Source: Heliocidaris tuberculata
Lineage: Eukaryota > Echinodermata > Echinoidea > Camarodonta > Echinometridae
Assembly: GCA_025618425.1 (NCBI GenBank)
Contig: CM046833.1
Coordinates: 6,276,066 to 6,340,065, forward strand
DNA: 64,000 nucleotides
Direction of reading: 5' to 3'
Shown: one piece after another, positions 14,211 to 61,860 of the stretch
Position numbering within the stretch: position 1 is the stretch's first letter
Layout: every line of letters begins with the position of its first letter
Notes under the pieces: generated by a model
What the model saw: only the letters and a program-made list of their open reading frames with translations
Told to the model about the DNA's origin: nothing
Database searches by the model: none
Made by a program: the position numbers and the translations under genes

Positions 14211-14249
<39 letters not shown>

Positions 14250-26477: not shown

Positions 26478-26515
<38 letters not shown>
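26478..26515. repeat. (AAT)n microsatellite
   Basis: About 12 trinucleotide units directly adjoin the Helitron-like end that follows. Confidence 0.9.
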
Positions 26516-26516
<1 letters not shown>

Positions 26517-27266: not shown

Positions 27267-28300
27267 ATGAAAGGCAAAAAAAAACAATTTGTCTATAGAA
27301 GTGACTATGAATCTAGTCAAAAGGTAATCAATTGTGGGGTACCCCAATGTTCGATTCTCGGTCCCTTACTTTTTATTATATACATTGTGATAGACTGTGA
27401 TAGATTGTCTCATGTATTATCTTTTATATTATTCGCGGACGACTCAAATATTTTCTTTCATCGCATCAAGATCCACACCAGTTAGTACAAACAGTAAACA
27501 CTTAGTTAAAAAGTGTAACTAATTGGATTAGATCAAATAGACTTTCCTTGAATCTTGACAAAATCAATTTCATGTTTTTCAGCAGTACATTGCATACATT
27601 ACCGGGAACTGTTACCATGAACAACCATTTCATAAGGAAAGTCGAAACGACCACATTTCCAGGTGTGACGATCGATGATAAATTTTCATGCCGAAACCAC
27701 ATGTATTTAACCTGTGTAAAAAACAGTTTCCCAAAATATTGGTATCATTAATAAACTAAAACACCCTTTCCCTTGGAAGACCCTCAATACATTATAACGC
27801 ACTCTTGTTTTATCTCTCTGAAACTATAGTATTCTTGCTTGGGGTAACTGTGTTAAAACTAACCTAAACAGATTTTATCTTTAAAAAAAAAAAGAATAAT
27901 GAGAATCATTTTCAACAAGAGTTACTGGGCACACACCAATTTATTATTCCTTGAATGTAAGTCCCTAAAATATACTATTTATACTCCTACAATCATGGAA
28001 ATTTTATGAATCAACTTGACAGAAATGACATGCCAAAAGCACTATTGTAAATGTTTCTTAAAAACAATGACATTCACAGATATCCAACCAGACAGTCATA
28101 TCTCTTTCACAAAAAAACTTGTTTTACAAAAAAATTCATATTTCCAACTTTGGAACTCACTTGGCACGGCGTTGAAATCGGTCCCAACATTTAACACATT
28201 TAAACGTAAATATGAATTGTCCTTGTTGGATAGCTACAAAAATCAAGAAACGCAAATGTATTCTCGTAGATATAAACCAAATTTATTAGACAACATTTTT
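27267..28300 (+). pseudogene. Decayed non-LTR retrotransposon reverse transcriptase
   Basis: The frame at 27267-27485 encodes FVYRSDYESSQKVINCGVPQ, SILGPLLFIIYI and FILFADDSNIFF, which are reverse transcriptase motifs including the catalytic FADD box. The frame breaks and resumes at 27548-27690 (LDKINFMFFSS..., TTFPGVTIDDKFS) and at 28080-28240 (FQLWNSLGTALKSVPTFNTF). Endonuclease and the N-terminal RT are missing. It resembles the CR1/L2/jockey group in general form; the exact clade is not decided. Frameshifts and stops make it nonfunctional. Confidence 0.88.
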
Positions 28301-29186: not shown

Positions 29187-29736
29187 ATGCAGCAATGTAA
29201 ATACCCTCATGAGAGTCTACCCAGGGTAGCCCCCCCCCCCCCCCCCCGGTAGCCAAACCCATGGTCGATTAGGGAACTTAAACATTTTACGTATATTTCT
29301 GGCCATTTAGTCAACCCAGGGTAGATAACACTTCCAACTATTCATATCACAGGTGTCCCAGATGTATTAGTTTGTCAACCCAGAGTAGTTTTTGTGGCTA
29401 TTTAGTCAACCCAGGGTAGATAACAATTTCAACTGTTTATCATACGTGTTTCATATGCTTTGATTAGTTGTCAACCCAGACTCGTATTTGTGGATGCCTG
29501 TGATTTAGACAGTAGGAAATGTTATCTACTCTGGGTTGACTTAATGGACACAAAGACAGCTCTGGGTTGACAATAGACTGAAGTTTCTAGGATGATTGTG
29601 ATATAGGCAGCTGGGAATCTTATCTACCCTGGGTTGACTAAATGGCCAGATACATACGTAAAATGTTTAAGTTCCCTAATCGACCCGGGGCCCTACCCCA
29701 GGTAGACTCTCATGTGGGTATTTCCATTGCTGCATA
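29187..29736. mobile_element. Foldback element with repeated GTCAACCCAGGGTAGAT words
   Basis: 'atgcagcaatgtaaatac' and 'gtatttccattgctgcat' are the inverted ends. 'ctaatcga' type words and 'acattttacgta' pair further in. 'tcaacccagggtag' or close variants occur about four times in the left half and, inverted, about three times in the right half. Confidence 0.8.
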
Positions 29737-37462: not shown

Positions 37463-37635
37463 AGCTTCATAGGGAGGGGGGGGGGGGGAGGTGGCACTGG
37501 TCTTAGGTGAATATAGGTTATCATAATTTTCTTGGCAACCGAACAGGATGAGGTATGTGAGTTCGGTTGCCAAGAAAATTATGATAACCTATATACACCA
37601 GTCCTAAGACCAGTGCCCCCCCCCCCCATGAAGCT
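37463..37635. mobile_element. Foldback MITE with G-run ends
   Basis: 'ggcactggtcttaggtgaat' and 'ataggttatcataattttct' on the left pair with 'agaaaattatgataacctat' and 'caccagtcctaagaccagtg' on the right. The outer parts are a G run and a C run. Confidence 0.85.
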
Positions 37636-37981: not shown

Positions 37982-38627
37982 GGGGAGCGTTTCATCTTGA
38001 AAGCGTTTTGACAGTGATTTTTACCGACAAATTTGCTCTCAGCCAGTCAGATATGCAAGGATTTCAGTAGCTTATAACTGTTGTCGGTAAAAATCACTGA
38101 CAAAACACTTGATTAAAGGGGGTACCCAATGCTGAAACAATGTTAGTTCATTTAAAAGATCATGATTTTATTAGCAGAAAATCATCTGCCTTAAGTTTTT
38201 TTAAAATTCGTGTTGCCAGAAAAATCCCCGAAATATGGTAAGACTTCAGAATATTTTGGCCCCTCAGCTGTGTCCCAATTTCAGCTAGGTAACCACAATG
38301 ACGTCAAAGTGGTTACCCAGGTTCGCGTATTGCAGATGTGTTGCGCGCTAGACTGTACAAAATGCATTACACCTTGCGCGCATTTTGCTATAATTGCGCG
38401 ACAAGGTAACCACTTTGACGTCATTGTGGTTACCTGGCTGAAATTGGGACACAGCTGAGGGGACAAAATATCCTGAAATCTTACCATATTTCGGGGATTT
38501 TCTGGCAACACGAATTTAAAAAAAAAAATTTAAGGCAGATGATTTTCTTCTAATAAAATCATGATCTTTTTAATGAACTAACATTGTTTCAGCATTGGGT
38601 AACCACTTGATTAAACGCTCCCCAGGA
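37982..38627. mobile_element. GGGGAGCGTTTCAT foldback MITE, split by a nested element
   Basis: The left part (37982-38115) begins 'aggggagcgtttcat' and has the core 'agcttataactgttgtcggt'. The last bases of the right end (38605-38627, 'acttgattaaacgctccccag') lie beyond the 489-bp insert. Confidence 0.85.
38116..38604. mobile_element. Foldback element AAGGGGGTACCCAATGC, copy 1, 9-bp TSD
   Basis: The arms mirror each other for about 190 bp (ccaatgctgaaacaatgtta / taacattgtttcagcattgg; accacaatgacgtcaaagtg / cactttgacgtcattgtggt). ACTTGATTA occurs on both sides (38107-38115, 38605-38613). A 9-bp duplication is typical of Mutator-like elements; no transposase is present to confirm. Confidence 0.8.
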
Positions 38628-39738
38628 GCATCGCTTGAACATTAATTTGCCAACAAAATGGGGGATATCCGGGTAATTTTGAAACGCTAGGGGGCGGGAC
38701 GGATGGGGATGGATGTATACATGCAGAGACTTTATCGAAATAAAGCATTATATCAATGATACATTTAAAAAGAATGTTCTTACTTTTGCAAAGAAAATGA
38801 TAGAGAAGACATGATCATTTGTGGGGAGGAGGTTTCATTTCGGGGCGTCGCTAGACTATTGAATGGGGGTAGAGGTGATTTGGGACTTCATACGCCAACA
38901 AATTTTCAATAAACAAAAAAGGAAGAAAGCAAGCAAGAAAGAAAAAGGTCCCAAAATTTTGCCGACGGGGGTAAATAGCGGAGGGGCCTATATGTAGTCG
39001 ATATGGAGTTTGTGTGCAGTTCATGTTAATTTGGGCAACCACTGTGAATGTATTGTACTTCGTCACACTAATCGAAAAAAAAGATGTTGCCAAGTTTTTA
39101 TGTTGACCTTCAGTGACCTTAACCCCAAGGTCAAAGGTGAAAGGTCATTATCATGACCATATACCTCATTCAAAATATGTCGATCTTGCTATCAAAATGC
39201 AGCAAACTTGACACGAGACACGATATATATGACATTGGTGTTAAAATCAAGAATTAATGTCTCTAAGGGTTGGAGGAACGTTCCCCCTCAAAAAAATGGG
39301 GGGGGGGGGGAATGAAAAAAGGGTACTTGGGCACGGCAACTACAACATCTTGGTGGAAAAGATTGACAAACTATCATGAATTTACTTTTTTTCGTATGAA
39401 TCCCTTTTTAATGAAAGCATTAACTTCTTTAAAGACTCACTATTTTGAAATAATATTGAAATATTGTAATCTTCTTGGACACAAGAGGCTGGTAATAAGT
39501 TGGTTAGCTATTTGCGAGCGAGCGGAGCGAGCGGATCGAGTGAAAGAAAAGGAGAGTTTAGCTAACAGCCCTGTTGCCTACAGTATCAATTTGTATTTTG
39601 ATTAGGGTGTTAACATCTAAATTTTGTTTAGACGAAGCCTGTTAGTTTATTTTTTTTACTGTATTTTATTACATAACCAAAATATTGTTGTCTCTTTTCT
39701 TCAGATGATTTGGCCGTTATTCCGTAATTTTAAGGCTT
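38628..39738. other. Unassigned sequence between the two foldback copies
   Basis: It includes an end-like 'ggggcgtcgctagac' (38841), a 'ccttgacc'-type stretch near 39100-39160, a G run at 39298-39310 and 'gagcgagcggagcgagcgg' near 39516. No gene is supported. Confidence 0.4.
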
Positions 39739-40231
39739 AAAGGGGGTACCCAATGCTGAAACAATGTTAGTTCATTTAAAAGATCATGATTTTATTAGCA
39801 GAAAATCATCTTCCTTAAGTTTTTTTTTAATTCGTGTTGCCAGAAAAATCCCCGAAATATGGTAAGACTTAAGGATATTTTGGCCCCTCAGCTGTGTCCC
39901 AATTTCAGCTAGGTAACCACAATGACGTCAAAGTGGTTACCCAGGTTCGCGTATTGCAGATGTGTTGCGCGCTAGACTGTACAAAATGCATTACACCTTG
40001 CGCGCATTTTGCTATAATTGCGCGACAAGGTAACCACTTTGACGTCATTGTGGTTACCTAGCTGAAATTGGGACACAGCTGAGGGGCCAAAATATCCTGA
40101 AATCTTACCATATTTCGGAGATTTTCTGGCAACATGAATTAAAAAAAAAATTTAAGGCAGATGATTTTCTGCTAATAAAATCATGATCTTTTAAATGAAC
40201 TAACATTGTTTCAGCATTGGGTACCCCCTTT
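39739..40231. mobile_element. Foldback element AAGGGGGTACCCAATGC, copy 2
   Basis: It is nearly identical to copy 1 over its whole length, and its right end 'gcattgggtaccccctt' is better preserved. The flanks (aaggctta, aaggacgt) are only partly alike. Confidence 0.85.
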
Positions 40232-40364
40232 AAGGACGTTCATCAGTTATGTTTGTGCGCACCTTAGCTGCGCATCCTGGCTGGTTGTGTTACGTCATCA
40301 CAACACCGGGAGAGTATTGCGCGCAGTTAAGACAATGGATACGCACATTAAACACAATGCTTAA

Positions 40365-40408
40365 CTAGAAATTTAATTCGTCACTGAAGATGAATTAGGT
40401 GGTCTGTC
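40365..40408 (-). mobile_element. Helitron-like 3' terminus (copy 2), cut by the inverted-repeat insertion
   Basis: On the minus strand this is the hairpin GACGAATT-type end (one loop-side base changed) followed by CTAG and T. It continues at 51824, after 11.4 kb of inserted DNA; the uninterrupted arrangement is seen at 26516-26600. Confidence 0.7.
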
Positions 40409-41213
40409 CAGGCCCCTAAAGCTCCGCCATCTTGTCGGGGTCCATTAGATCTAGAAGGCCCGATAAGCACCTTTGCATAATTCATGAGCGTAAATGCATG
40501 ATTCATTTTGTAAGATGCTCCCCGAGAGTAGCATTAGTTTGTACGCGGTATGAAACACATTACGCGCATCAGCTTAGAGCATGCGCAGTAAGAAAGGTCA
40601 AATTCAGTAATATATGCATTTATGGTAATGTATTCATCGCTTCAACGTACAGATTCGGCGAATCAGCGTCGGTAATTTCTAATTGTGGCAGACGGTACTC
40701 GGTCAATGCACTTTAATCGTAATCGATCTCCGAATAAAAATATATCGCTTTGCAAATTTGTAAACAAGTAAATAAAGCTAAAAATGTAACCGGACAGACC
40801 GAATCAAATCTAATCATGGATACAGATAATGTAAAAGTAAATGTAAAGTACTTGACACGTCACCAGTGGCATAAGTCTCTTTTGTTGTTGATATACTTAA
40901 TACCGGTAAATATATTCATTTGATATGCATAAAGGATAAATGATAAATAAATGAATAAATAAATGAAACATATATGTATAATGAAAAAAACAAAAACAAA
41001 AAACCCCTCTTGCAGTGTAGGATTTTTTTTCAGGGATGGTTTTCACAACAGAAAGGATGATCTTCATTTGGGGGTGAGGGAATGGGGTCCTTTAGTTAAT
41101 TGAGGTTTTTCTTTAACTTTTTAGTTAGTCTTGATATAAATGATTTTTTGTTTTTAAAGTGTACGTTTGTTCTTTTTTAGAAGGGATTTTGAATTGTATT
41201 AAAAGGAACAATC

Positions 41214-41803
41214 CACTAGCGTAGCTGAGGGAGGGAGGGGGGCAGGGTGCCCCCGACAACTTTTCCTCCCTTTTTTTTTTCTTGTTTGTCAGAGAATTAT
41301 GGAGGAAAACATGTGATACCCCTCCCCCCCCCCCCCCCCCCCCCCCCCCCGAGCGTCTATTTTGAGGGCTGGGGAGTCTTGATGTAAATGATCTTTTTAT
41401 TTTTATTTTTTAAAAATAATATAAGTGTACATTTGTTCTTTTTTGAAAGGGATTTTTTATTTTATTAAAAGGAACAATCCACTAGCGTAGCTGAGGGGGG
41501 GGGGGGGGGCAGGGGGCATAATTTTTTTTTCTTGCTTGTCAGAGAATTATGGAGGAAAACATGTAATAACCCCCCCCCCCCCCCCCCCCCCCCTCCGAGC
41601 GTCTATTTTGAGGGCTGGGGGAAAAAAGTACCGCACTGAGCGAGTTTGGGGAGCTGGCGAGAAGAAAAAAAATACGGGTCTCCCTTCAAGCAGAGTTTTA
41701 GAATTTAGAATTTTTAGTTTTTTGTTTTTGCTTGTCACAGAATTATGATTATGGAGGAAAACATCTGATAACTCCCCCCCCCCCCCCTCACTGAGCGCCA
41801 CTG
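41214..41803. mobile_element. hAT-type element nested in left arm, perfect 8-bp TSD
   Basis: Starts CACTAGCGTAGCTGAGG, ends GAGCGCCACTG; GAACAATC flanks it on both sides (41206-41213, 41804-41811). An internal direct duplication repeats the left end and flank near 41467. Confidence 0.85.
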
Positions 41804-41880
41804 GAACAATCAAAATACCGGGAAGAATTATCTTCTAACTTTTACTTTGCATTTGTGAGTAAAATTTATATGTTGCCATT

Positions 41881-42281
41881 CACTAACGTACCCAAGGGGG
41901 CCGGGGGCAAGGGGGGGGGGGCAGAGTGCCACCTGACAAGTTTTGAAGAAAAAAAAAGGTTATCGGGTTCCTGAACAAGATTCTCGACACCCCCCACTGA
42001 GCGACTTTTGGAGGGCTGGCGAACAATTTTCGGAACTGACCTCTTTTTTTTTTCTTTAATGCTTGTCAGAGAGTTATGGAGGAAAACTGGACCCCATAAA
42101 ATCTGATAACCCCCCCCCCCCCCGATCCACTAAGCGACTTTGGGAGGGCTGGCGAAAAAAAATTCTCGATCCCCCCCCCGAGCGACTTTTGGAGGGCTGT
42201 TGGGGGGGGGGGGAATTGTCGCCATTGATAACCCTTTTTTTTTTTTTAACCCCTCTTGACGCCAAGGTCCAGACGCCACTG
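41881..42281. mobile_element. hAT-type element nested in left arm, perfect 8-bp TSD
   Basis: Starts CACTAACGTACCCAAGG, ends CCAGACGCCACTG; TTGCCATT flanks it on both sides (41873-41880, 42282-42289). Confidence 0.9.
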
Positions 42282-42421
42282 TTGCCATTCCTTTCCAGCT
42301 TTCATGCCTGTAAGTCACCACTCAATCACAAGTCTTATACAATACTATTCATTTCCATCAACTTATGATTGACCATTCCAGTCAAAGCTTATTGTCTTCA
42401 CTCTCCCTTTCACATACGCAG

Positions 42422-42950
42422 GCATGACAGGGGTGTCGCTAGAGAATTATGAATGGGGCAATAGTAACTGTGCCAAGAAAAAAAATTCCCACAAATTTCC
42501 AACAATGAAAAAGTAAAACTGAAGTTTATATTTTTATATATTTTTGGACATACCAAAATACTGACAGTTTGAAACGTTACAAATATTAAGGTGTATTGCC
42601 ATCCCGCCACACCAGTTGTGCATCCAGGATTTTATAAAAGATGGGGCACACATTGCAGAAAATTCTCTGACAAGTTGAAAAAGGTCATTTCAAAGGAGGC
42701 GGGGGGAGGGGGTACAATCTTGAAGTTGTATACTGAAGGTATGTCACTCTGTATCAAGGGGGGCATGGGCCGGAAGTGCCCCCTAAATCTGATACTGCCC
42801 CCTTCCACCCCCACCCCCTCGAGCGATACCACTGCTTTTTCTCTCATTTTTTATCTTTCTCATTCCATTCTAACTCTGGCTTACCTTTCACACAAACTTT
42901 TCATTTAACACTTCTAGTTATGGAACCCCTGCCCCCCCCCCCCCCCTTGA
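42422..42950. repeat. G-run repeat fragments in left arm (mirror at 49600-50110)
   Basis: It contains 'caggggtgtcgctagag', 'ccaggattttataaaagatg' and 'ctctgacaag' modules of the hAT-type family. The TSD of a complete element was not resolved. Pro-rich ORFs are homopolymer products. Confidence 0.5.
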
Positions 42951-43530
42951 ATACTCTATGTAAAAGTATATCACATGAACATTATCACTAAAATGACAAT
43001 TCAAAGTTAGAATTAAAAAGCTCTCAGAATATGTAAATGTTAAAGGTAACTAGATAGATGACTTTCCATCCCCTTAACATGATAAAAGAGATGAACTAAA
43101 TCCTTTGGTTTTTTTTGTCTATTTAATAACAATAAATATCAATTCAAATAACAAGTTTATAATTTGAAAAAAAAAAAATATTGAAATTGCACATCCTTGC
43201 AGAAGTCTAGTGGTAAGTCAAATTTTCATATCACTTACTAGTACAGTATATCACTGAATGAATATTTGGTTTTTCTCACAAGTTCTCAAGCAATTTGCAT
43301 ATCAACTGTTTCATTCTATTATACTGTTGAAATGGTCACTGACATAAATCAAATCTAGGTTTTGTTAAATTTCATTCAGCTGAAGGCACTTATTTTTTAG
43401 AATTTCAGCAAATGCAATATTCAAACAAAAATCCTCCAAATCAGAAACCCTTGTTAGGGATATCTGTATTGTTTTATTCTGAATGAAATCGCCAACTTCA
43501 TTGCATGTATCCACTCGTGAGACTGCTGAT

Positions 43531-43572
43531 CTAGCTTACAGGAATGAAGAGCTGTAGTGGTAATCCGTAAGT
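43531..43572 (-). CDS. Putative next exon in left arm
   Basis: The acceptor is tttcattcaacag-like (gaatgaaaag context) and joins in phase 0 to encode TYGLPLQLFIPVS and a stop. Alternatively CATTCCT then GTAAGC is a donor inside it and the gene continues outward. The right-arm copy reads GTTAAC at this place and would lack that donor. Confidence 0.35.
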   Translation of the reverse strand, partial: TYGLPLQLFIPVS

Positions 43573-43992
43573 CTGTTGAATGAAAAGAGAAATAGAACAA
43601 ATTAAAAACTATTAAGGTCGTAAACAATAAGAAAGAACTGCAATGTGCCAGATATGTATATATGCATGACTCAAACAGAGTGAATATTGCTTGATAAAAA
43701 GCTATTTTACCCACATTCATTAAAATTAAGTTCTTTTGTAAGCATGAAAATGGAAATGATGAATCCTTATAAAAATTAAGTAAAATTCCTATATTTGACT
43801 AAAAATTCTTTTTCAGGTGAGAGGGAAAGGAAATTACAATAGTTTTAAATAACTTGCTTCCTCTTCAAGTTGTGTACTACTGATAAAGGCCTATTATATA
43901 TTTTTTATATTGATATATTTTTTGAAAACTTTTTTTTTGTGGGGGGGGGGGGGGGTAATTGCCAAATTTAATTATGCACAGTAAAGGCCTAC

Positions 43993-44093
43993 CTCTCCAA
44001 GCTTGAGCATGCAGGTCTGAATATCTGCTCTTTGTTCATTTCTCTGGATTGTGTATCTCAATATTCTTTCACCATCCATTGTAAAGAATCATG
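43993..44093 (-). CDS. Putative coding exon in left arm (29 codons)
   Basis: The acceptor is ttttttacacag and the donor is GGAGAG then GTAGGC. From ATG at 44079 it encodes MDGERILRYTIQRNEQ then CMLKLGE, open to the donor and in phase 0. An in-frame stop lies just before the ATG, so this would be the first coding exon. The family is unknown. In the right arm the ATG is TTG and the frame has an extra three codons. Confidence 0.4.
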
Positions 44094-44605
44094 CTGTGTA
44101 AAAAGAGGATAAATAAATAAATTTATAAGTGCAAGTATAAATGAAAGTAATTTAGAGGTACACAATATATATTTCACAGAAATACTTGTACTCCACTAAT
44201 TGTGAATTTTTTTTTTTTATCTTCTCAAACATCTAAATACATCTAATTTAGATCATAGATCAAAGCTCAAAAGAGACCGTTTTCACAGATTGTATTGTGA
44301 ATAAATGTGAAGTGTAATCTTCTCTTTCTTTTCCATGCTTACACACAATGCTGGGCTTTGTTGGTAATGGTTTAAAATGTTTGCATTAAGGACAAGCTAT
44401 TAAAAAATCAATGGCAACTAGTAAGGGCATCTGCAATATGCTTTTAACTAACACATTTAGGGACCCCTGGAAGCCCTAATTGCTTCTATAGTTCATTTCC
44501 TTGTTTCCTGTTAAATTACAATATTTATGATAATCATAAAATGATTCAAATTACACTTTACATGTATAAGCATATAGATACTCAGGAAATGTTCTGTAAA
44601 CTTAC

Positions 44606-44705
44606 CTGTAATTTAGGAAGGCTAGATTTCTGCTTCATCATGTATGGTCAGTTTGCATTTGCGCAATGTTTGAATAACATTTCTTGGGTTCCTTTCCATT
44701 TTGAT
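44606..44705 (-). other. Putative untranslated exon in left arm
   Basis: Bounded by ttaacag and by CTAAATTACAG then GTAAGT. The right-arm copy (47846-47928) has the same splice sites but a 17-bp shorter body, in which one frame (GKEPKKLRKLLTIQDEQKF) is open. Frame disagreement between arms argues for untranslated sequence or decay. Confidence 0.4.
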
Positions 44706-45611
44706 CTGTTAAAAAAAAAATAATGAAAACAAGAGTTGTCATTTTTGGGGGGTCTTTCTTGTTACAGTCATAGCTACATTGATAATAATTGTTTTTATCA
44801 GGCAAATAAATTCCAATCCATTATTTTTCAAAGGTCAAAATTCAATAATCATCAGCTATCTTATGTTTATTAAGGTGCATTCAAGCTACATAAGTTTCTT
44901 GGAAAGAAAAAGAAACAGCCTCAGCAACAAAACTTTCTAGTGACGTGTGTCTGAAATTTTGAACAGGGATCCCTAAACTGGCTTTAACAACCAGACTGAA
45001 TTTTTGCCCAAAATACATTTGCCTCCCCCCCCCCCCAAAAAAAAAAATCATATTCTATCAGACTCCAGTTAATTTAAGTCAGTTTAATTGACCAAATGGC
45101 ATGAATTGAACCAAATATAGATTAGTAGATCCAAGTCTTTTAAGAACGAAAACAAGTCAGGCGTGAAAGTGAAGTTGAACAGAGTTCTTATTAAACATGG
45201 TTAGAGATCTAGATCTTCTTTGACTTTGTCCCCCATGGCCAAGCACAGCTTTAGCCCTAGCCTAGGCCTAGCCAAGTCTACATCTACTCAAGATAGACTA
45301 TCCTTCAGACTTCGGTTTATGGAATAAAGTTTCAACAAATATTCAGAGTTCAAAACAGTAAACCTCGTGTAACATTAATGATTTTATATCAGCACTAATT
45401 CATATCTTATCAAAATCATCGATATCGTAGAATCCCACCACACAGTCACAGATTCCAAATCTAACGTTAACCGTAGTCTCGTAGTTAGACTATAACGAAT
45501 ACGCTTGTGTGCACCATACAGATAAACAACATGAGGAAATTAAGCTTATGGTTATGCAATACAGTCTATCACCATTTAGAGTTTAATAACGTTAGATCTG
45601 TTTAGATCTTC

Positions 45612-45803
45612 TTAGATCCAACTTGTTTGCATGTATTGAATTTTTGACGCTGTCGAAATAGCCACCGCGCCAGTGGCTGAAACTGACCCGTGACTGCCCG
45701 GGTAGCTGTCATGAGCCTCAGCGTGTGAGGACAGCGATCTCCGTGTCAAACTACATCTCGACGATAAATTTAGAACTGTAATTTCGAGAGAAAATTGTTT
45801 CAA
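45612..45803 (-). other. 63-codon ORF kept in both arms (mirror 46725-46916)
   Basis: The predicted peptide (MKQFSLEITVLNLSSRCSLT...) differs at a single position (E/A) between arms. I recognise no family. It sits downstream of the putative first donor, within an intron, so its conservation probably only reflects the high identity of the arms near the centre. Confidence 0.3.
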
Positions 45804-46270
45804 TCCTTTTTCAACACAACTCTTGTGAATCCTTTTGAAATATAGATAAATTATCCTAGATCACCTAGAATTGTACAAGTTATTTTTATTAATAAACTAA
45901 ATGTACGAAATTTAATGATAATTTGACCTCTACTCACCTTGTCCTTTTGAACTAACATCTCTCATTTCGTGCGGATGACGTCTGGCATATAATCTGCATA
46001 ATTAATAGGTCTTGAATTGACGAAGTTGAGGTCAAGTAAATTTTGATCGATACTATCTAATTATGTACATATTCATGACCTAGCATCCAATCAAAGTTTC
46101 ACAATAAACTGACACGCACAAGAAATATGAATAATGCAACGTATCGGGTGCTTATCGGGCTCTTCAAATGATCCGAAAGAGGCGGGGCCTAATTCCATTC
46201 GCGTAATGATTTCCGCGCGTGCTGCTTTCCGTCTAGTAAATCTATAGTATTATACGTCTATGGGTCTGTC

Positions 46271-46590
46271 CATAGACGTATTATAGATTTACTAGACGGA
46301 AAGCAGCACGCGCGGAAATCATTACGCGAATGGAATTAGGCCCCGCCTCTTTCGGATCATTTGAAGAGCCCGATAAGCACCCGATACGTTGCATTATTCA
46401 TATTTCTTGTGCGTGTCAGTTTATTGTGAAACTTTGATTGGATGCTAGGTCATGAATATGTACATAATTAGATAGTATCGATCAAAATTTACTTGACCTC
46501 AACTTCGTCAATTCAAGACCTATTAATTATGCAGATTATATGCCAGACGTCATCCGCACGAAATGAGAGATGTTAGTTCAAAAGGACAAG
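46271..46590 (+). promoter_or_regulatory. Putative promoter and first exon in right arm (mirrored at 45938-46262)
   Basis: CpG-containing sequence next to the centre (gcacgcgcggaaatc, gccccgcctcttt) is followed by a donor AAGGACAAG then GTGAGT at 46590/46591. The mirrored donor lies at 45938/45937. The two copies would transcribe divergently from the centre. The start site is inferred, not seen. Confidence 0.35.
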
Positions 46591-47845
46591 GTGAGTAGAG
46601 GTCAAATTATCATTAAATTTCGTACATTTAGTTTATTAATAAAAATAACTTGTACAATTCTAGGTGATCTAGGATAATTTATCTATATTTCAAAAGGATT
46701 CACAAGAGTTGTGTTGAAAAAGGATTGAAACAATTTTCTCTCGAAATTACAGTTCTAAATTTATCGTCGAGATGTAGTTTGACACGGAGATCGCTGTCCT
46801 CACACGCTGCGGCTCATGACAGCTACCCGGGCAGTCACGGGTCAGTTTCAGCCACTGGCGCGGTGGCTATTTCGACAGCGTCAAAAATTCAATACATGCA
46901 AACAAGTTGGATCTAAGAAGATCTAAACAAATCTAACGTTAGTAAACTCTTTGAATGATGATAGACTATATTGCATAAGCCTTTCCTCATGTTGTTCATC
47001 TGTATGCTGCACACAAGCGTATTCGTTAGTCCAACTTGGACTTGGATCTAACAGTAACACGTAGTGACGTACGACGAGACTACGGAGTACGACTAACGTT
47101 AGATTTGGAAACTGTGACTGTGTGGTGGGATTCTACGATGTCGATGATTTTGATAAGATATGTAGACCAAAATTAGTGCAGATATGATTTCATTAATGTT
47201 ACACGAGGTTTACTGTTTTGAACTCTGAATATTTGATGAAATTTTATTCCATAAACCGAAGTCTGAAGGATAGTCTATCTTGAATAGATGTAGACTTGGC
47301 TAGGGCTAAAGTAAAGCTGTGCTTGGGGGACAAAGTTCAAAGTAGATCTCTAACCATGTTTGATAAGAACTCTGTTCAACTTAACTTTCATACCTGACTT
47401 TTTTTTCGTTCTTAAAAGACGTGGATCTACTATATTTGGTTCAATTCATGCCATTTGGTCAATTAAACAGACTGTAAGTTAACTAGAGTCTGATAGACGA
47501 TGATTTTTTTTTTTTTGGGGGGGGGGGAGGCAAATGTATTTTGGGCAAAAATTCAGTCTGGTGTTAAAGCCAGTTTAGGGATCCCTGTTCAAAATTTCAG
47601 GCACACGTCACTAGAAAGTTTTGTTGCTGAGGCTGTTTCTTTTTCTTTCCAAGAAACTTATGTAGCTTGAATGCAGGCTTAATAAACATAAGATAGCTGA
47701 TGATTATTGAATTTTGACCTATGAAAAATAATGGATTGGAATTTATTTGCCTGATAAAAACAATTATTATCAATTTAGCTATGACTGTAACAAGAAAGAC
47801 CAAAAAAAAGTGACAACTCTGTTTTCATTTTTTTTTTTTAAACAG

Positions 47846-47928
47846 ATCAAAATGGAAAGGAACCCAAAAAATTGCGCAAACTGTTGACCATACAGGATGA
47901 GCAGAAATTTAGCCTTCCTAAATTACAG
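47846..47928 (+). other. Putative exon in right arm, mirror of 44606-44705
   Basis: The acceptor is ttttttttaaacag and the donor is AAATTACAG then GTAAGT. One frame is open across all 83 bp. Confidence 0.4.
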
Positions 47929-48429
47929 GTAAGTTTACAGAACATTTCTTGAGTATATACATGTATAATGTAATTCGAATCATTTTATGATTATCATAAA
48001 TATTGTAATTTAACAGGAAACAAGGAAATGAACTATAAAAGCAATTAGGGCTTCCAGGGGTCCCTAAGTGTGTTAGTTAAAAGCATATTACAGATACCCT
48101 TACTAGTTGCCATTGATTTTTGAATAGCTTGTCCTTAAACTATGCAAACATTTTAAACAGTTACCAACAAAGCCCATGATTGTGTGTAAGCATGGAGAAG
48201 AAGGAGAGGATTACACTTCACATTTTATCCACAATACATTCTGTGAAAATGGTCTCTTTTGAGCTTTGATCTATGATCTAAATTAGATGTATTTAGATGG
48301 ATCAGAAGATTTTTAAAAAAGTCAGAATTAGTGGAGTACAAGTATTTCTGCGAAATATATATTTTGTACCTCTAAATTACTTTCATTTACACATGTACTT
48401 ATAAATTTATTTATCCTTTTTTTACACAG

Positions 48430-48539
48430 CATGATTCTTTACATTGGATGGTGAAAGAATATTGAGATACACCATGTACACAGTCAGGAGAAGTGAACAA
48501 AGAGCAGATACACTGACCTGCATGCTCAAGCTTGAAGAG
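48430..48539 (+). other. Putative exon in right arm, mirror of 43993-44093
   Basis: The acceptor is ttttttacacag and the donor is GAAGAG then GTAGGC. It encodes DGERILRYT in the same frame as the left arm but without the start codon, and with an inserted MYTVRRS-type stretch. Confidence 0.4.
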
Positions 48540-48583
48540 GTAGGCCTTTACTGTGCATAATTAAATTTGGAAATACCCCCCCC

Positions 48584-48615
<32 letters not shown>

Positions 48616-50249
48616 TTGAAAAAAATATCAATATAAGAAATATATAATAGGCATATATCAATAGTACACAACTTGAAGAGGAAGCAAGTTATTTGAAACG
48701 ATTGTAATTTCCTTTCCCTCTGACCTGAAAATGAAGAATTTTTAGTCAAATATGGGAATTTTATTTAATTTTTACAAGGATTCATCATTTCCATTTTCAT
48801 GCTTACAAAAGAACTTGATTTTAATGAATGTGGGTAAAATAGTTGTTTATCAAGCAACATTCACTCTGTTTGAGTCATGCATAATATACATATCTGGCAC
48901 ATTGCAGTCCTCTCTTATTGTTTACGACCTTAATAGTTTTTAATTTATTCTATTTTCTCTTTTCATTCAACAGACTTACGGATTACCACTACAGCTCTTC
49001 ATTCCTGTTAACTAGATCAGCAGTCTCACGAGTGGATACATGTAATGAAGTTAGGGGTTTCATTCAGAATAAAACAATACAGATATCCCTAACAAGGGTT
49101 TCTTATTTGGAGGATTTTTGTTGGAATATTGCACTTGCTGAAATTCTAAAAAATAAGTGCCTTCAGCTGAATGAAATTTAACAAAACCTAGATTTGATTT
49201 ATGTCGGTGACCATTTCAACAGTATAATAGAATGAAACAGTTGATACGCAAATTGCTTGAGAACTTGTGAGAAAAAACGAATATTCATTCAGTGATATAC
49301 TAGTAAGTGATATGAAAATTTGACTTACCACTAGACTTCTGCAAGGGTGTGCAATTTCAAGATTTTCTTCTTTTTTTCGAATTATGAACTTACTTGAATT
49401 GATATTTATTGTTATTAAATACACAACAAAAACAAAAAAGGATTTAGTTCATCTCTTTTATCATGTTAAGGGGGATGGAAAGTCATCTATCTAGTTACCT
49501 TAAACATTTACATATTCTGAGAGCTTTTTAATTCTAACTTGAATTCTCATTTTAATGATAATGGTCATGTGATATACTTTTACATAGAGTACTAGTATTC
49601 AAAGAGGGGAGGGGGGGGGGGGGCTTCCATAACTAGAAATGTTAAATGCAAAGTTTGTGTGAAAGGTAAGCCAGAGTTAGAATGGAATGAGAAAGATAAA
49701 AAATGAGAGAAAAAGCAGTGGTATCGCTCGAAGGGGTGGGGTTGGAAGGGGGCAATATCAGATTTAGGGGGCACTTCCACCCCCCCCCCTTGATACAGAG
49801 TGACATACCTTCAGTATACAACTTCAAGATTGTACCCCCTCCCCCTCCTTTGAAATGACCTTTTTCAACTTGTCAGAGAATTTTCTGCAATGTGTGCCCC
49901 ATCTTTTACAAAATCCTGGATGCACCCCTGGGGTGGCCGGATGGTAATACACCTTAATATTTGTAATGTTTCAAACTGTCAGTATTTTGGCATGTCAAAA
50001 AATATACAATATAAACTTTAGTTTTACTTTTTCATTGTTGGAAATTTGTGGGAATTTTTTTTCTCGGCACGGTTACTATTGCCCCATTCACAATTCTCTA
50101 GCGACACCCCTGTGTATGTGAAAGGAAGAGTGAGGACAGTAAGCTTTGACTGGAATGGTCAATCATAAGTTGATGGATATGAATGGTATTGTATAAGACT
50201 TGTGATTGAGTGGTGACTTACAGGCATGAAATCTGGAAAGGAATGGCAA

Positions 50250-50633
50250 CAGGGCGTATCTGGACTGGGTTAAAGAAAAAAAAAATGGGTTATCAATGGC
50301 GACAAATCCCCCTCATCCCCAGCCCTCCAAAAGTCGCTCGGGGGGGGGGGGGGGGGTCAATTTTTTTTCGCCAGCCCTCCAAAAGTCGCTCAGTGGATCG
50401 GGGGGGGGGGGTATCAAATTTTATGGGGTCCAGTTTTCCTCCATAATTCTCTGACAAGCATTAAAGAAAAAAAAGGTTATCAGTTCCGAAATTGTTCGCC
50501 AGCCTTCCAAAAGTCGCTCAGTGGGGGATGTCGAGAATCTTGTTCAGGAACCCGATAAACTTTTTTTTTTTTTTCAAAACTTGTCAGGGGGCATTCTGCC
50601 CCCTTGCTCCCGGCCCCCTTGGGTACGCTAGTG
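50250..50633. mobile_element. hAT-type element nested in right arm, perfect 8-bp TSD
   Basis: Mirror of 41881-42281, with AATGGCAA on both sides (50242-50249, 50634-50641). Confidence 0.9.
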
Positions 50634-50710
50634 AATGGCAACATATAAATTTTACTCACAAATGCAAATTAAAAGTTAGAAGATAATTCTTCCCGGTATT
50701 TTGATTGTTC

Positions 50711-51008
50711 CAGTGATGCTCAGTGGGGGGGGGGGGGGGGGGGGGGGGGGGAGTTATCAGATGTTTTCCTCCATAATTTTCTGACAAGCAAAAAAATAAA
50801 AATAAATAAAAAATTGTAAATTCTAAATTTCTGCTTGAAGGGAGACCCGTATTTTTTTCTTCTCGCCAGCTCTCCAAAACTCGCTCAGTGGGGGGTGGGG
50901 GTATCACATGTTTTCCTCAATAATTTTCTGACAAGCAAGAAAAAAAAATGGGAGGAAAAGTCGGGGGCACTCTGCCCCCTGCCCCCCCCCCCCAAAGCTA
51001 CGCCAGTG
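50711..51008. mobile_element. hAT-type element nested in right arm, perfect 8-bp TSD
   Basis: Mirror of the element at 41214-41803 without the internal duplication; GATTGTTC on both sides (50703-50710, 51009-51016). Confidence 0.9.
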
Positions 51009-51823
51009 GATTGTTCCTTTTAATAATTTTTTTTTTTTTAATCCCTTTCAAAAAATAATATAAGTGTACGTTTGTTCTTTTTTGGAAGGGATTTAAAAAA
51101 AGACAAGACTAACTAAAAGGTTAAAGAAAAAACCTCAATTAACTAAAGGACCCCATCCCCTCACCCCCAAATGAAGATTATCCTTTCTATTATGAAAACC
51201 ATCCCTGAATAAAATCTTACGCTGCAAGAGTTTTTTTTTTTTTTAATATCATTATATAAATGTATGTAACATTTATTTATTTATTTATCATTATCCTTTA
51301 TGCATATCCAATGAATATATTCACCGGTATTAAGTATATCAACAAGAAAAGAGACTTATGCCACTGGTGACGTGTCAAGTACTTTACATTTATTTTTACA
51401 TTATCTGTATCCATGATTAGATTTGATTCGGTCTGTCCGGTTACATTTTTAGCTTTATTTACTTGTTTACAAATTTGCAAAGCGATATATTTTGATTCGG
51501 AGATCGATTACAATTAAAGTGCATTGACCGAGCGCCGTCTGCCACAATTAGAAATTACTGACGCTGATTCGCCGAATCTGTACGTTGAAGCGATGAATAC
51601 ATTACCATAAATGCATATATTACTGGATTTGACCTTTCTCACTGCGCATGCTCCAAGCTGATGCGCGTAATGTGTTTCATACCGCGTACAAACAAATGCT
51701 ACTCTCGGGGAGCATCTTACAAAATGAATCATGCATTTACGCTCATGAATTATGCAAAGGTGCTTATCGGGCCTTCTAATGGACCCCGACAAGATGGCGG
51801 AGCTTTAGGGGCCTGGGTCTGTC

Positions 51824-54560
51824 CCTCTGGCAAATTGCTTTGTCAGATGTGATAATATTTCTGCAAGATAATAATCATGATAATGTTGACGAAAATGATG
51901 ATAAGATGGTCATATAAGTGATAACAATGACGATAATGATATATTGATAATGATGATCATAATGTCAACAAATGATAATAACCACGATAACCGAAGTCGC
52001 ATAGCGCCCATTCAGGTTCACTTTTAGGGGCGATTTTTTGAAAAGTGCTTGAAATGGCATAAAACGTGTGCAAAATGAATTTGGGAGGATTTGGATCATT
52101 TCTAAATTTTGCGCACACACGGACGCGCGTACGGACGCGTACGCGCGCGTTTAACGAAAAGACCTTGACTGGAATGACAGTGACCTTAACCATGCCAAAT
52201 ATGAAAGAGAAATGACATTTCGTTATGAAGATATGACCAGAACTTGATTTTCACAAAATGGCGCCTGGATGACGTCACGATAACCTGATGACCTTGAAAA
52301 AGATGTGGGAACTTGACCTTATTAGGACTGATGACTGACGAAAATATGAAGAAAATTGACCAGGCCGATTTTGAGAAATCGTGATAACGAACTAGACGAT
52401 TTGATATTGCAGGACATGTGGGAGATTATCCCCTTAGCTTTAATACACGACAGGGAATGAGATTGTACACAAACTACTGCACACTACTTTCCAATCGACA
52501 TAACACGCAAAATTAGGCAGTTTATTACATTGTTTGTGATGGTATATGTTATAATAATCGAAGAAGATGGTAAAATGAAAGGCAAAAAAAAAAAAAAAAA
52601 ATGGTCCCACCCGGAAATCGATCCGGGGTCGCCGGAATGAGAGGCAAGTGCTTTACCAATGGACCAAAATATTTCCAATAGAGATAACACGTAAACGAAA
52701 TACGGGATTCTGAAATCATATTTTGTAGTTAAAAAATGGGCATGATCCCGACATCTGATCAAAAATTGGAAGGCACATTTGTAAAAGCTTATAGTCTCAG
52801 CAATAACATACTAAAATTTGGAAGAAAATCGAGCAGAAATTACAAAGATACTGCTCAAAGAAGACGGGAATGTAGAATCAAGATTTGAGAAAAAGTCATC
52901 TCCTATAGCGAATACACGAAAAATGAGAAAAATTGACATGCCTCCTTTAATCGCAAAAATACGCCATGATGCCTTTGTCAAAATGAAAATTACTGAAATA
53001 TTGTCAAATGAATACAAAAATTATGACGTCATTTTTTCAAAATCGAATTTTTGAGTTCATATGCAAATATGACGACGTTTCGATGTTTGACCCCCCAATT
53101 TTTTTCATGAATTACAATCTACAACTCATAGGCTTTCATAATATGTAAAAAAACTGGGGGGTTTCCACGCATTCTGACGAGCTATGGCGGATTCCATATA
53201 GGCATGTTTTTACCACTTTTTACATTATATTGCCCATTGACGCGCGCACGAATTTGAAAGTTTGACGCGCGCGTGTGGCATTATGGAATGTCGAGAAAGA
53301 CTGTAAATAGTTGGAAATTGTCAAGAATAGTGTCAGGAAGACAAACCATGCGAAAAAACGGCGTTTTTACGTTCTGTACGCGCTGCACGCGCGCATAACG
53401 CGCTCGCGGACGCGCACGGGCGGAAAATTTTGAAATGCTTAAAATGTCCTGAACCGTACTCTAATTTGATTAAAATGTCCTGAACCGTACTCTAATTTGA
53501 TTAAAAAGTGATTTTGAACATTTTATAAATTTTGACGCGTGCGTACGTGCGTGTCATGCGTGCGCGGATTTTGTTGACATGTTATGTTGACCCTTGACCT
53601 GAAATTCATGTGTGTCAAATATGGTTCATTTTTGATGACTCGTTATGAAGATATGATCGATAATGTGATTTCACAAAATGGCGCCTGGATGACGTCACGA
53701 TGACCTGATGACCCGATGAGAATACATGCAAAATGTGAAAAATTGACATGCCTCCTTTAATCGCAAAAATACGGTGTGATTCCTTTGTCAAAATGAAAAA
53801 TGGTGTAATTGATTTTGTAGAGAAGTGTCTTAGCTACAACATATCAAAATTTGGAAGAAAATCGACAACTTATTACTGAAATATTGTCAAATGAATACAA
53901 AAATTATTTCGTCATTTTTTCGAAAATATTGTTTTGAGTTCATATGCAATTATGATGACGTTCCGACCGCCTGACCCACCAATTTTTTCATGAATTCCAA
54001 TTTACAACTTATAGACTTTCAGAATATGGATTTGGAAGAAAGCCGAGCAGAAATAACAGAGATACTGCTCAAAGAAGACTGGAATGTAGAATCAAGATTT
54101 GAGAAAAAGTCATGTCCCATAGAGAATACACGCAAAATGTGAAAAATTGACATGCCTCCTTTAATCGCAAAAGTACGCCATGACGCCTTTGTCAAAATGA
54201 ATAATAGTGAAACGGACCTTTTTGAGAGATTGCCTCAGCTACAACAAATTTGGAAGAAAATCAACGACATTATTACTGAAATACTGTCAAATGAATACAG
54301 AAATTATGACGTCATTTTTTCAAAATCATTTTTTTGAGTTCATATTTAAATATGATGACGTTCCTATACCACTCGACCCCCAATCTTATTCATGAATTCC
54401 AATCTACAACTCATAGGCTTTCAAAATATGTAAAAAAAATTGGGGGGTTCCCAGCCTTTCTGACGACCACTTTTCTGACGACCACTTGACCATGATAGGC
54501 CTAATGACTGACTGAAATTTGATGGAAATTGAGTGAGCCGAACTCGAGTAATCACACCCA
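51824..54560 (-). mobile_element. Continuation of the Helitron-like element (copy 2)
   Basis: 51824-52590 matches 26560-27265 closely. Beyond this, degenerate internal repeats follow: 'aaattgacatgcctcctttaatcgc' (52932, 53744, 54145), 'tactgaaata.tgtcaaatgaatac' (52991, 53874, 54273) and 'gagttcatatgcaa.tatga' (53053, 53937, 54337). A CpG-rich stretch lies at 53235-53580. No Rep/helicase ORF is seen; the far end is not fixed. Confidence 0.55.
52602..52666 (-). mobile_element. tRNA-derived SINE-like fragment
   Basis: On the minus strand: TGGTCCATTGGTAAAGC (A-box) and GGATCGATTTCC (B-box), followed by a T run. It has the layout of a tRNA-like head but no confident tRNA cloverleaf. It is inserted in the Helitron-like repeat. 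Confidence 0.55.
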
Positions 54561-54737: not shown

Positions 54738-55920
54738 CGAGACCATATGGGCGATGTACTGTGCAGTTCAAGCTCTCAAATGACATAATCCAGACCCATA
54801 TATTACCGTACCGTAAGGATGAGAACGCCTGTCTACACTTTGCTATTTTTCAAAATGCTTGCAAATAAAACAAAGACATATATACTAATGCCATATTTTA
54901 TAATACGTATGGAATAATTCTGACATAACATGGACAAAAAAAAAAAAAATAATAATAATAATGTCGATAGGAATGTACTTTCTGCAGGGCTCACATGATG
55001 CTTGGTTTACTGTATGTGTTTATGTAAAGTGTTCGTTTTCAATATTTTTTCCCAACAAATTGGAAGTCGCGTGTTTCACGAAATTTATCGATAAATTCTT
55101 TTTTTTTTTAACCATCTTGTGTGTAAAATTGATATTGAAATCAAACCATTTTCTTCATTCTGTGATAATGCTGAGTAAGAGGACATTGGGGAGATGTTAT
55201 TGTGGTATAGTAGATTAAATTATAAATTAAATCAATCTTTGTTTTCTGAAATGGCCCGTCTATGGACGTTTGAGTATACATGCTACAATTAAATCGTCGT
55301 TCATTTCACGAAGTGGCACGAACGCCAAAAACTGCTTAAAATAGCTCGTTTTAAGCTTGCCGCTAGCTTGCCGCAAGCTTAAATTTGTATAGTGGAAGAT
55401 TCATGGTCGTTCGTGCCTCTTCGTGAAATGAGCAACGAAATGTAACATACCAGAAAGTGCGCCTTAAATTACAGTATGTTATGTCGAGAGCAATTACACT
55501 GAATAATTTTTTGTTTTCAACTTTCGTAGTTAACATCGTGAATAGTCTTGCATGTTTCAATCATTGTTCAACTAGTAGTCATCGTGAGTGGTAAAAACAA
55601 GAGTCAACAGTAGCTTTGATATGCTAAGTAGATCTCCATTGGCATACTTGTTATCTTTTCCTCATCGTGTGTTGTAAGGATAATCTTCTTTTGAGATATA
55701 TCTGATAGAATTAAAGAGTGTAATACTAGTATGTGTTAAATATGTAGAAGCATTATAAGAAGCACATGCATTTGAGAAGCGTATTCAATATATTGTTTGG
55801 AGATATGATATTACATTATACCTTGTACTATTGTTTATTGGAGACTTAATAAATATGTTTTTTTTAATAGAAACAGTTCTCGTTTCTCTATTTATATGTG
55901 ACAAGTGCTAAGAAAGCGAC
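54738..55920. repeat. Tandem segmental duplication, segment A copy 1
   Basis: It matches 56931-57985 from 'cgagaccatatgggcgatgt' to 'caagtgctaagaaagcgac' in the same order and orientation. A palindromic stretch 'gctagcttgccgcaagc' and 'cgttcgtgcctcttcgtgaa' lies inside. The ORF at 54961-55218 is not conserved in the second copy. Confidence 0.85.
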
Positions 55921-55984
55921 TTATGTTAATTAAGACAGTCACAAGTCATGTATATACATTTATATAGTATATAGTAGTATACGT

Positions 55985-56930: not shown

Positions 56931-57985
56931 CGAGACCATATGGGCGATGTACTATGCAGTTCAAGCTCTAAAATGAAATAATCAAGACCCATATATTACT
57001 TTACCGTAAGGATGAGAACTCCCGTCTACACTTTGCTATTTTTCAAAATGCTTGCAAATAAAACAAAGACATATAGACTAATGCCATATTCTATAAAAAT
57101 GTATGGAATAATTCTGAAATAACATGGACAAAAAAACAAATGTATGTCGATAGGAATGTACTTTCTGCAGGTCTCACATGATGCTTGGTTAACTGTGTGT
57201 GTTTATGCAAAGTGTTCGTTTTCAATATTTTTACCCAACAAATTGGAAGTCGCATGTTTCACGATATTTATAGATAATTTTTTTTTTAACCATCTTGTGT
57301 GTAAAATCGATTTCGAAATCAAACCACATTCTTCATTCTGTGATAATGTTAAGTAAGAGGACATTGGGGACAGGTTATTGTGGTATAGTAAATTAAATTG
57401 TAGATTAAATCGATCTTTGTTTTCTGAAATGGCCCGTCTCTGGACGTTGAGTATACATGCTACACTTAAATCGTCGTTCATTTTACGAAGTGGCACGAAC
57501 GCTAAAAATTGCTTAAAATAGCTCGTTTTTAGCTTGCCGCTAGCTTGCCGCAAGCTTATATTTGTATAGTGGAAGATCCATGGCCGTTCGTGCCTCTTCG
57601 TGAAATGAGCAACGAAATGTAACATACCAGAAAGTGCGCCTTAAATTACAGTATGTTATGTCGAAAGCAATTACACTGAATAATTTTTCGTTTTCAACTT
57701 TTGTAGTTTACATCGTGAATAGTCTTGCATGTTTCGATCATTGTTCAACTAGTAGTCATCGTAAGTGGTAAAAACAAGATTCAGTATGTGTTAGTATGTG
57801 TTAAATATGTTGAAGCATTATAAGAAGCACATGCATATGAGAAGCGTATTCAATATATTGTTTGGAGATATTATATTACATTATACCTTGTACTATTGTT
57901 TATGGGAGACTCAATAATTTTTTTTTTTAAAATAGAAACAGTTCTCGTTTCTCTATTTATATGTGACAAGTGCTAAGAAAGCGAC
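56931..57985. repeat. Segment A copy 2
   Basis: Second copy of 54738-55920. It has small deletions (for example near 57780, where about 110 bp of copy 1 are missing). Confidence 0.85.
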
Positions 57986-59046
57986 ACTATGTCATGTATG
58001 CATGGTATATAGAAATTCATATATTATATTTATATATAACTGCGAGAAATGAAAATGGGAGAATAATGGTTGCGTAGCTTAAATCAAAGTTCCCCAGAGC
58101 TGTCCTCCCTTTTTGAAATTTTTGCAAAGGTTCAAAAAATGTCTCCGCCTGGAATAGAACCCGGGTCGTTGACTTAGAACGCCAATGCCTTAACCACTAG
58201 ACCAGTTTATTAATGAGGTTGAAGATTTGTCAATCTGTTGGTGAACTTGTAAATACACCGAGTGACCTGCTTCATTCCGTTCCATCATTCTCTTGAATAG
58301 GGTGCAAAATTATAATTTGAGAAAGAGAAAGAGTAGAAAAGGAAAAAAAAATTATGTTATGTTGTGGATTATATACTCCCCAATACTCAAGGTAAGTTGC
58401 ATTAGAAATTAGTCTTTTCAGGGTATAAAATGCTAATGATTTTGTAAAGCTTTTTCGCTTGGCTCCTTCACATAACGTTGCTTCAGGATCTTGTAATTTC
58501 ATGCCCCAGTATATATATAATTTGATATAGTTTAGAAATGGCTTTTAAAAGGGTTCTAAATTGAAAAAAAGGAGAAAAGAAATGTAATATCTTGTTGCTT
58601 TGCTCCCTAATATACACGTAGGCCTGTAAGTTTCATCAGCTTCTTTTTAAGTACTTTGTCCCTAATATAGGATAAAGATAAAGTTAGAGGGTTTCTATCC
58701 TCTTTCTTCCCACCCTTTCTCCCTGTCTCTCTCTTCCTCTCTTCCTATCCTTTGCTTTCTTTCTTCATCACTGAGTGTGTGTTCTTTCTCTCTCTCTCTT
58801 TCTCCTTTCCTCTCTCTCTCTCTCATTCTCTCTCCCTTCTCGCGCCTTGACTCTGTTGTTTATTTTACGCTTGTTGTTTTGACAATAATTATGCGCTATG
58901 CACTACAACCTTAGTGCATTTTTGTACTTGGTATCATTTCCTGAAGAAGCCTTATAGGCGAAATATTGAACCTTTTGTGTCTAACGGAGTCATTTATACT
59001 GTGTCTGTCTCTATTTTTAATCTCCGTAGCAGAACTTTTGAACTAT
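57986..59046. other. Insertion between segments A and B of copy 2
   Basis: About 1 kb is present only in the second copy. It contains a SINE-like fragment at 58141-58205 (A-box TGGTCTAGTGGTTAAGGC and B-box GGGTTCTATTCC on the minus strand) and a CT-rich tract at 58730-58850. No gene is seen. Confidence 0.55.
58141..58205 (-). mobile_element. tRNA-derived SINE-like fragment
   Basis: The A-box and B-box words listed for the surrounding insertion are spaced as in a tRNA gene; the acceptor stem does not pair well. Confidence 0.6.
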
Positions 59047-60899: not shown

Positions 60900-61058
60900 T
60901 TGTAGAAGCAAAAAGAAAACCATGGCGAAAGATGGGAGAGAAGATTATAAAAAAGGCCCCCCCCCAAAAAAAAAAAAAAAAAAAAAAAAGAGGAAGAAGA
61001 AGAAGAAGAATAACATAACAAAATTAGAGATGAAAAGCAAGAAGAAAAAGAAAATAAA
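60381..61058. other. Unassigned sequence with GA microsatellite
   Basis: A (GA)n tract at 60855-60898, then C, A and GAA runs to 61010. The ORFs at 60497-60721 and 60779-61021 have no recognised domain. Confidence 0.4.
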
Positions 61059-61860
61059 CTAGAAATTTAATTCGTCACTGAAGACGAATTAGGTGGTCTG
61101 TCTTGAACTGGTAAATTGTTTTGTAAGATATGATGATGATTGCGTAAGATAGTAATCATGATAGGGTCGACGACAATGATAAGATGGTCATATATATGTG
61201 ATGACAGTGAAATTGACCATCCGAAATATGAAAGAGACATGACATTTCGTTATGAACATACATGACCATACATGACCATAAGTTGATTTTCAGAAAATGG
61301 CACCTGGATAAAGTTATAATGACATCATGACCTTGTTATTTTCACAGCATAATTGTCCTACCAACACTCATGTCTGTGCCAACTTTCATAAAGATTCAAT
61401 ATTCCGTTTTTAAGTAATCAGCCCCGCAAAAAAGGTGGTTTTGGGTGGTTTTCGATTAATTAGTATGAGATTTTCCGTTTCTTCATCTGTCAATGGGAGG
61501 AAAAAATACAAGAATTTGAAGAATTTTTAAATTGGAAGTAAAATGGACAGGCATTTCCTTGAAGTTTCAGCCATTGGTTTCGTTGTAGAAGGCAGGATGG
61601 ACGAGAAATTAAGGAAAAGATGGACAAGAAAACGACGTCTACACTTTTAAAAGGGAAAAAATGAATTAAAAAAAAACAAAACGAATTGAGCTATGAATCT
61701 GATTTTTGATGTGCATGATATTTGGTCGAAATGTGATGGACGAGGCAAAATTCAGAAAGATTTACCTCCTCTTTTGGGAGTTATTGGGGGTGGCATTTTT
61801 CATATTTGCGGGGGCACTGACGCGCGAACGCGAGCGCACGAGTAGTAGTCGTGAACAGAT
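61059..61860 (-). mobile_element. Helitron-like 3' terminus and adjoining body (copy 3)
   Basis: The same terminal hairpin and CTAG followed by T on the minus strand. The body shares 'aaatatgaaagaga.atgacatttcgttatgaa' with the other copies and then diverges. The far end is unclear. Confidence 0.6.

Follow-up and report, generated by a model that had tools for sequence, protein, structure and literature searches.

Among described transposons, the systems closest to the one treated here are the fold-back elements, and we take the TU elements of sea urchins to be among the nearest of these. Our subject is an inverted repeat of 11.4 kilobases (kb) in the sea urchin Heliocidaris tuberculata, lying in a stretch of 64,000 nucleotides (nt) of contig CM046833.1 (assembly GCA_025618425.1); we refer to this stretch as the window and give all coordinates as positions within it. 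In Drosophila virilis, the fold-back element Tetris makes target duplications of 8-10 base pairs (bp) and carries inverted repeats of up to 1,735 bp, and its authors placed it in the Mutator superfamily on the strength of these duplications and of earlier suggestions on fold-back elements (PMC4079207). For Galileo, of the P superfamily, two reports describe duplications of 7-8 bp with a preference for GTATTAC within a 15-bp palindromic target motif (PMC4168063), and inverted repeats lengthened by copying the inner sequence of one end to the other end (PMC3573991). Composite insertions of the maize Ac/Ds elements, which belong to hAT, are bounded by transposon ends with 8-bp duplications, and the flank DNA between these was connected through end joining or homologous recombination (PMC4270019).

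Set against these descriptions, the sea urchin element resembles Tetris in that long inverted repeats make up most of it, with modules inside them and no transposase found; unlike Tetris, it has arms of 5.5-5.9 kb, a loop of about 6 nt and a second, opposite terminus near the centre in each arm. It shares with Galileo long, variable inverted repeats and a duplication, here of 8 bp, within the 7-8 bp range, a likeness of architecture, but no P-type transposase was found here and the target sequence is another one. As in the maize composites, outer transposon ends with an 8-bp duplication enclose flank DNA joined centrally, whereas the maize cases pair a 5' with a 3' end and here both outer ends are the same terminus, designated L, around a palindromic centre that carries the target octamer. 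Neither Galileo lengthening nor Ac/Ds composites, as described there, predict that central octamer.

Tentatively, and with close to even confidence, we read the 11,407-bp element (40409-51815) as one old non-autonomous fold-back DNA transposon, mobilised whole through its two identical outer ends.

Arms, termini and insertion site

The overall structure consists of the following parts.

26513-27284, minus strand: empty-site copy of the Helitron-like repeat (aligned part), with the octamer single and uninterrupted at 26552
40362-40408, minus strand: 3' end of the target Helitron-like repeat, with hairpin and CTAG end, including the left octamer at 40401-40408
40409-46262, plus strand: arm 1, 5,854 bp, filling the gap between left and central octamer exactly
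46263-46270, no strand: central octamer GGTCTGTC, the loop of the palindrome
46271-51815, minus strand: arm 2, 5,545 bp, the inverted copy of arm 1, filling the gap between central and right octamer
51816-52592, minus strand: right octamer and further aligned part of the interrupted Helitron-like repeat, matching 26552-27284

The octamer GGTCTGTC thus stands at both edges of the element and at its centre with one arm in each gap, as an earlier note on this DNA had claimed and as an octamer search and an arm alignment bear out. Both strands of the window together hold seven matches, against a mean of 0.95 expected, and none of 100 shuffles reaches seven. Beyond the two outer edges (40401, 51816) and the centre (46263), the matches are two empty Helitron-like sites (26552, 61095) and a mirrored pair within the arms, 40793 (minus) and 51430 (plus), which the earlier note lacked. 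Judged by base composition, a given position carries the octamer with a probability of 7.5e-6; noise alone is unlikely to have put it at the exact centre, although it was for this feature that the finding was chosen.

The two arms together make up nearly all of the element, so that long inverted repeats form its bulk in the manner of fold-back elements. An alignment of the whole arms has 65 gaps and shows the same base at 5,077 of its 5,401 aligned sites; the difference in length comes mainly from the largest gap, a 304-bp stretch absent in arm 2. Both arms begin with CAGGCCCC next to the outer octamers and finish at the central one.

When the left flank (39 bp plus the octamer) is joined to the right flank, one continuous Helitron-like copy with a single octamer results, matching 26513-27284. 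The flanks are therefore not mirrored, and the 11.4 kb as a whole is securely bracketed by an 8-bp duplication: GGTCTGTC lies at 40401 and 51816, the site at 26552 reads GGTCTGTCCCTGTGGCAAATT without interruption, as had been reported for the repeat near 26.5 kb, and a second intact site lies at 61095. The proposal that the element inserted with an 8-bp duplication into a repeat of known empty form is supported by these results, as are hAT-like outer ends. The segment 40362-40408 matches 26513-26559 and 61057-61102, and on the minus strand all three copies read as a short hairpin (AATTCGTC, spacer, GACGAATT), then AAATTTCTAG, then T, with one hairpin base of the interrupted copy changed relative to the other two. 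A hairpin followed by CTAG and T is the rule for a Helitron 3' end, and the target repeat follows it in all three copies. The interrupted copy also has a 34-bp extra stretch (52096-52130) relative to the copy at 26.8 kb.

Within the arms we distinguish outer and inner termini, adjoining DNA and two further regions.

40409-40485, plus strand: outer terminus L of arm 1, CAGGCCCCTAAAGC..., its first 37 bp identical to inverted L'
41119-42123, plus strand: region of diverged repeated modules of arm 1, several with C runs, forming direct-repeat families D1-D3
45593-46935, no strand: central zone, where arm 1 and arm 2 are nearly the same (identical in 663 of 670 alignment columns)
46127-46191, minus strand: inner cryptic terminus R of arm 1, an inverted match to L
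46192-46262, plus strand: X, from R to the central octamer, 71 bp
46271-46336, minus strand: X', from R' to the central octamer, 66 bp
46337-46401, plus strand: inner cryptic terminus R' of arm 2, identical to R, inverted
51745-51815, minus strand: outer terminus L' of arm 2, the same as L except for a 6-bp gap

Near the inner arm end, R reads GGTGCTTATCGGGC...GGGGCCTA and matches the outer end in inverted orientation. The local alignment of L with R scores 74, where 1,000 mononucleotide shuffles give at most 56; in BLAST, the two ends compared with each other give an expectation value (E) of 0.001, and a comparison across the window gives values of 0.014-0.022 for L and of 1.3e-4 for L'. Because this outer-like terminus is separated from the centre by 71 bp in arm 1 and by 66 bp in arm 2, the centre looks like duplicated flank surrounding a short hairpin. 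On a plain reading of the sequence, L...R would once have been an element and X its adjoining DNA; elsewhere in the window (E up to 1) X finds X' and a single 15-bp match. The earlier note had taken one arm for a complete element of about 5.5 kb. That part of it is not supported: of the 8 bases of the inner arm end, CATAGACG, 3 agree with the outer end, CAGGCCCC, and the clear inverted terminus lies 66-71 bp further in.

The centre itself is a near-perfect mirror. Its arms differ by two substitutions and one 5-bp gap, and the longest run free of differences spans 529 columns, where 2,000 random placements give at most 201. Pairing continues into the central octamer, the first G with the last C, leaving GTCTGT as the unpaired core of a short inverted repeat in X (GTCTATGG-GTCTGT-CCATAGAC), and the 75 nt at 46227-46301 fold into a single hairpin with a z score of -11.7. 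The sole gap between the arms in this zone is GTATT, present in arm 1 only (46247-46251), 11 bp from the central octamer.

As in fold-back elements, repeated modules lie in the inverted repeats; they are diverged and form no clean tandem arrays. Family D1 has four copies at a spacing of 202-325 bp, and the module core is found four times in arm 1 and twice in arm 2. The C-run module of the arms (41119-42123) recurs at 23217-23564, 14173-14236 and 7841-7909.

Divergence, coding content and superfamily

Outside the near-identical core, the arms differ at 248 of 4,096 clean sites (6.1 %), and the interrupted Helitron differs from its neighbour copy at 26.5 kb at 18 of 713 (2.5 %), so that the arm figure is the higher one (Fisher p 5.6e-5). 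An insertion is never older than the copy that holds it, and arms born at this site should therefore differ no more than the Helitrons do. Since they differ more, the arms had probably separated, and the palindrome had probably formed, before this insertion, a sequence-based conclusion that draws on the arm middle, the outer 500 columns not being in excess. The dating rests on one Helitron pair; the third Helitron-like copy (61053), with 82.8 % BLAST identity over 163 columns and 34-40 % difference in forced global alignments, was left out.

In the outer 500 columns of the arms, 12 of 484 clean sites (2.5 %) differ, as against 236 of 3,612 in the middle (Fisher p 1.5e-4). Within the middle, too, differences are unevenly spread (dispersion p 7e-10 over 36 hundred-site blocks), and conversion tracts, conserved ends and local misalignment in a repeat-rich stretch may each contribute. 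When the four densest of the 36 blocks are removed, 165 of 3,200 sites differ, which is still above the Helitron figure (p 0.0017).

The arms are apparently non-coding. Ten open reading frames (ORFs) of the window, eight of them in the arms, gave four weak Pfam matches in three proteins, all below curated cut-offs; the six-frame scan, which covered arm 2, gave no domain at E up to 0.1, hence neither a hAT nor a THAP-type transposase match there. Rfam returned nothing at gathering thresholds for the whole window. No protein homologues were found for 57203-57637 (E up to 0.001) or for the ORF at 51514-51801 in the arms (E up to 10). The 20-base L end had no match in viral contigs and three single bacterial matches in prokaryote genomes, which we take as chance, and arm 2 had no match among phages.

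An 8-bp target duplication is found in hAT and lies within the 7-8 bp of the P superfamily. The outer ends CAGGCCCC...GGGGCCTG agree with the hAT consensus, in which termini start CA(G). On the duplication and the CAGG ends, hAT appears the likeliest superfamily; P and Mutator types with 8-bp duplications are further candidates.

Possible movement as one unit and competing explanations

The starting unit would have been an element of about 5.8 kb, bounded by L and R as imperfect inverted repeats some 65-77 bp long, plus about 70 bp of adjoining DNA, X. At the short inverted repeat in X this unit may have become a palindrome, for example by fold-back synthesis, after which both outside ends would be L. 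A transposase from elsewhere, of a type that makes 8-bp duplications and most likely hAT, could then have used both L ends to move the whole palindrome, which would have landed in the 3' end of a Helitron and duplicated GGTCTGTC, and conversion between the arms may have held the centre identical.

Movement as one unit is favoured by the identical outer ends, by the match of the inner terminus to L, and by a parallel nearby. A palindromic repeat of about 500 bp is present in two copies, 38113-38608 and 39737-40234. Between the copies, 12 of 479 clean sites are different, and between the two arms within each copy the counts are 25 of 202 and 23 of 206, as though palindromes whose arms were already old had been spreading whole in this region. 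The diverged modules and the tiny loop likewise recall fold-back elements, as which the whole seems to behave.

Several observations weigh against this reading. Its serious weakness is that it leaves to chance the identity of central and target octamer, for which we estimate a probability of perhaps 1e-5 to 1e-4 if either orientation and positions close by are allowed; none of the simple explanations fully accounts for GGTCTGTC at the exact centre of the mirror. The inner arm ends read CA..TG at the central octamer, like transposon ends, and no second copy of the palindrome is seen within the 64-kb window. The age comparison uses one Helitron pair, assumes equal rates and finds its excess confined to the arm middle, the outer 500 columns alone showing none over the Helitron figure (p 1.0); conversion between the Helitron copies, of which we assume none, would make them appear too young.

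The strongest competitor, which we consider unlikely but a real contender, is that two already diverged copies (L...R-X, ending CTATG) inserted successively in opposite orientation at the same octamer, their centres being converted later. All three octamers and both CA..TG inner ends would follow without coincidence, and the divergence of the arms above the Helitron figure suits separate copies. The singed-weak allele of Drosophila reportedly carries such a double insertion, two inverted P elements at one octamer; among the papers listed by our literature searches there was neither this nor any other case of two insertions at one octamer. Unlike in singed-weak, the two ends of an arm here do not match, the inner agreeing with the outer at 3 of 8 bases, and the arms had probably diverged before insertion. 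This account also has the better terminus R, 66-71 bp inside, passed over twice, and requires the same 8 bp to be hit twice in opposite orientations. In one variant, compatible with the reading that the earlier note called simplest, the first copy hops locally into its own duplicated octamer; this is disfavoured by the divergences (248/4,096 in the arms, 18/713 in the Helitron pair), although the outer 500 columns (12/484, p 1.0) speak against rejecting it.

Preference for the octamer itself would remove the coincidence in another way. The element could be a giant palindromic transposon whose loop is the preferred target octamer, so that a GGTCTGTC-selective transposase builds inverted pairs and moves them as a unit with the centre always matching the edges, an idea that we regard as decidedly improbable. 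We give little weight to a related possibility, in which GGTCTGTC, at or close to the ends of Helitrons, is the favoured target of the transposase and a palindrome formed at one such site kept its central octamer when it moved to another. The target motif of the fold-back-like Galileo provides a precedent for such preference (PMC4168063); here a single insertion is visible, the window's other two Helitron-like ends being empty, and X must still belong to the element.

It is very unlikely that alternative transposition produced a composite insertion, with two L ends of sister copies co-inserted during replication and re-replicated X flanks joined in mid-element. The order of R and then X flank, seen to either side of the centre, agrees with such an origin, and the maize composites, with outer 8-bp duplications and a joined centre, offer a model (PMC4270019); the maize cases described there, however, pair a 5' with a 3' end instead of two ends of the same kind. 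Arms derived from sister copies would also have been identical at first, yet outside the core they exceed the Helitron divergence, and neither a palindromic centre nor a central octamer is predicted.

We attach just as slight a chance to an assembly error in which two loci or haplotypes were fused where the arms are nearly identical, in the central zone. That near identity, a sequence judged without reads, and other Helitron copies that could supply similar flanks would allow it. However, the outer flanks are unmirrored and join into one Helitron copy in which the octamer is single, 6 % of sites differ between the arms, and the centre has its own loop; the earlier argument against a simple assembly mirror holds on the assembled letters. 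A simple fold-back in place after insertion is rejected because the right flank is a genuine Helitron continuation, not a mirrored left flank, and a separate younger palindrome inserted at the centre because R, which pairs with L, lies inside the central zone.

Neighbouring repeats and significance

The palindromic repeat at 39737-40234 reads TTAA-AGGGGGTACCC...GGGTACCCCCT-TTAA, suggesting a TTAA-inserting hairpin element. Other self-palindromic stretches lie at 29263-29685, 17396-17570 and 37481-37627 and are 76-84 % self-complementary, and hairpin-form repeats look common in the window. A direct duplication of about 1.1 kb with 92-94 % identity joins 54738-55606 to 56931-57783 and 55727-55926 to 57792-57992.

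Fold-back elements are already known, but the step from a single element to a palindrome is hard to catch. The combination of an inner terminus, captured flank on both sides of the centre and a datable host repeat would make that origin testable at this locus. If the central octamer is not a product of chance, it indicates either that one target was used repeatedly or that the transposase selects its target.

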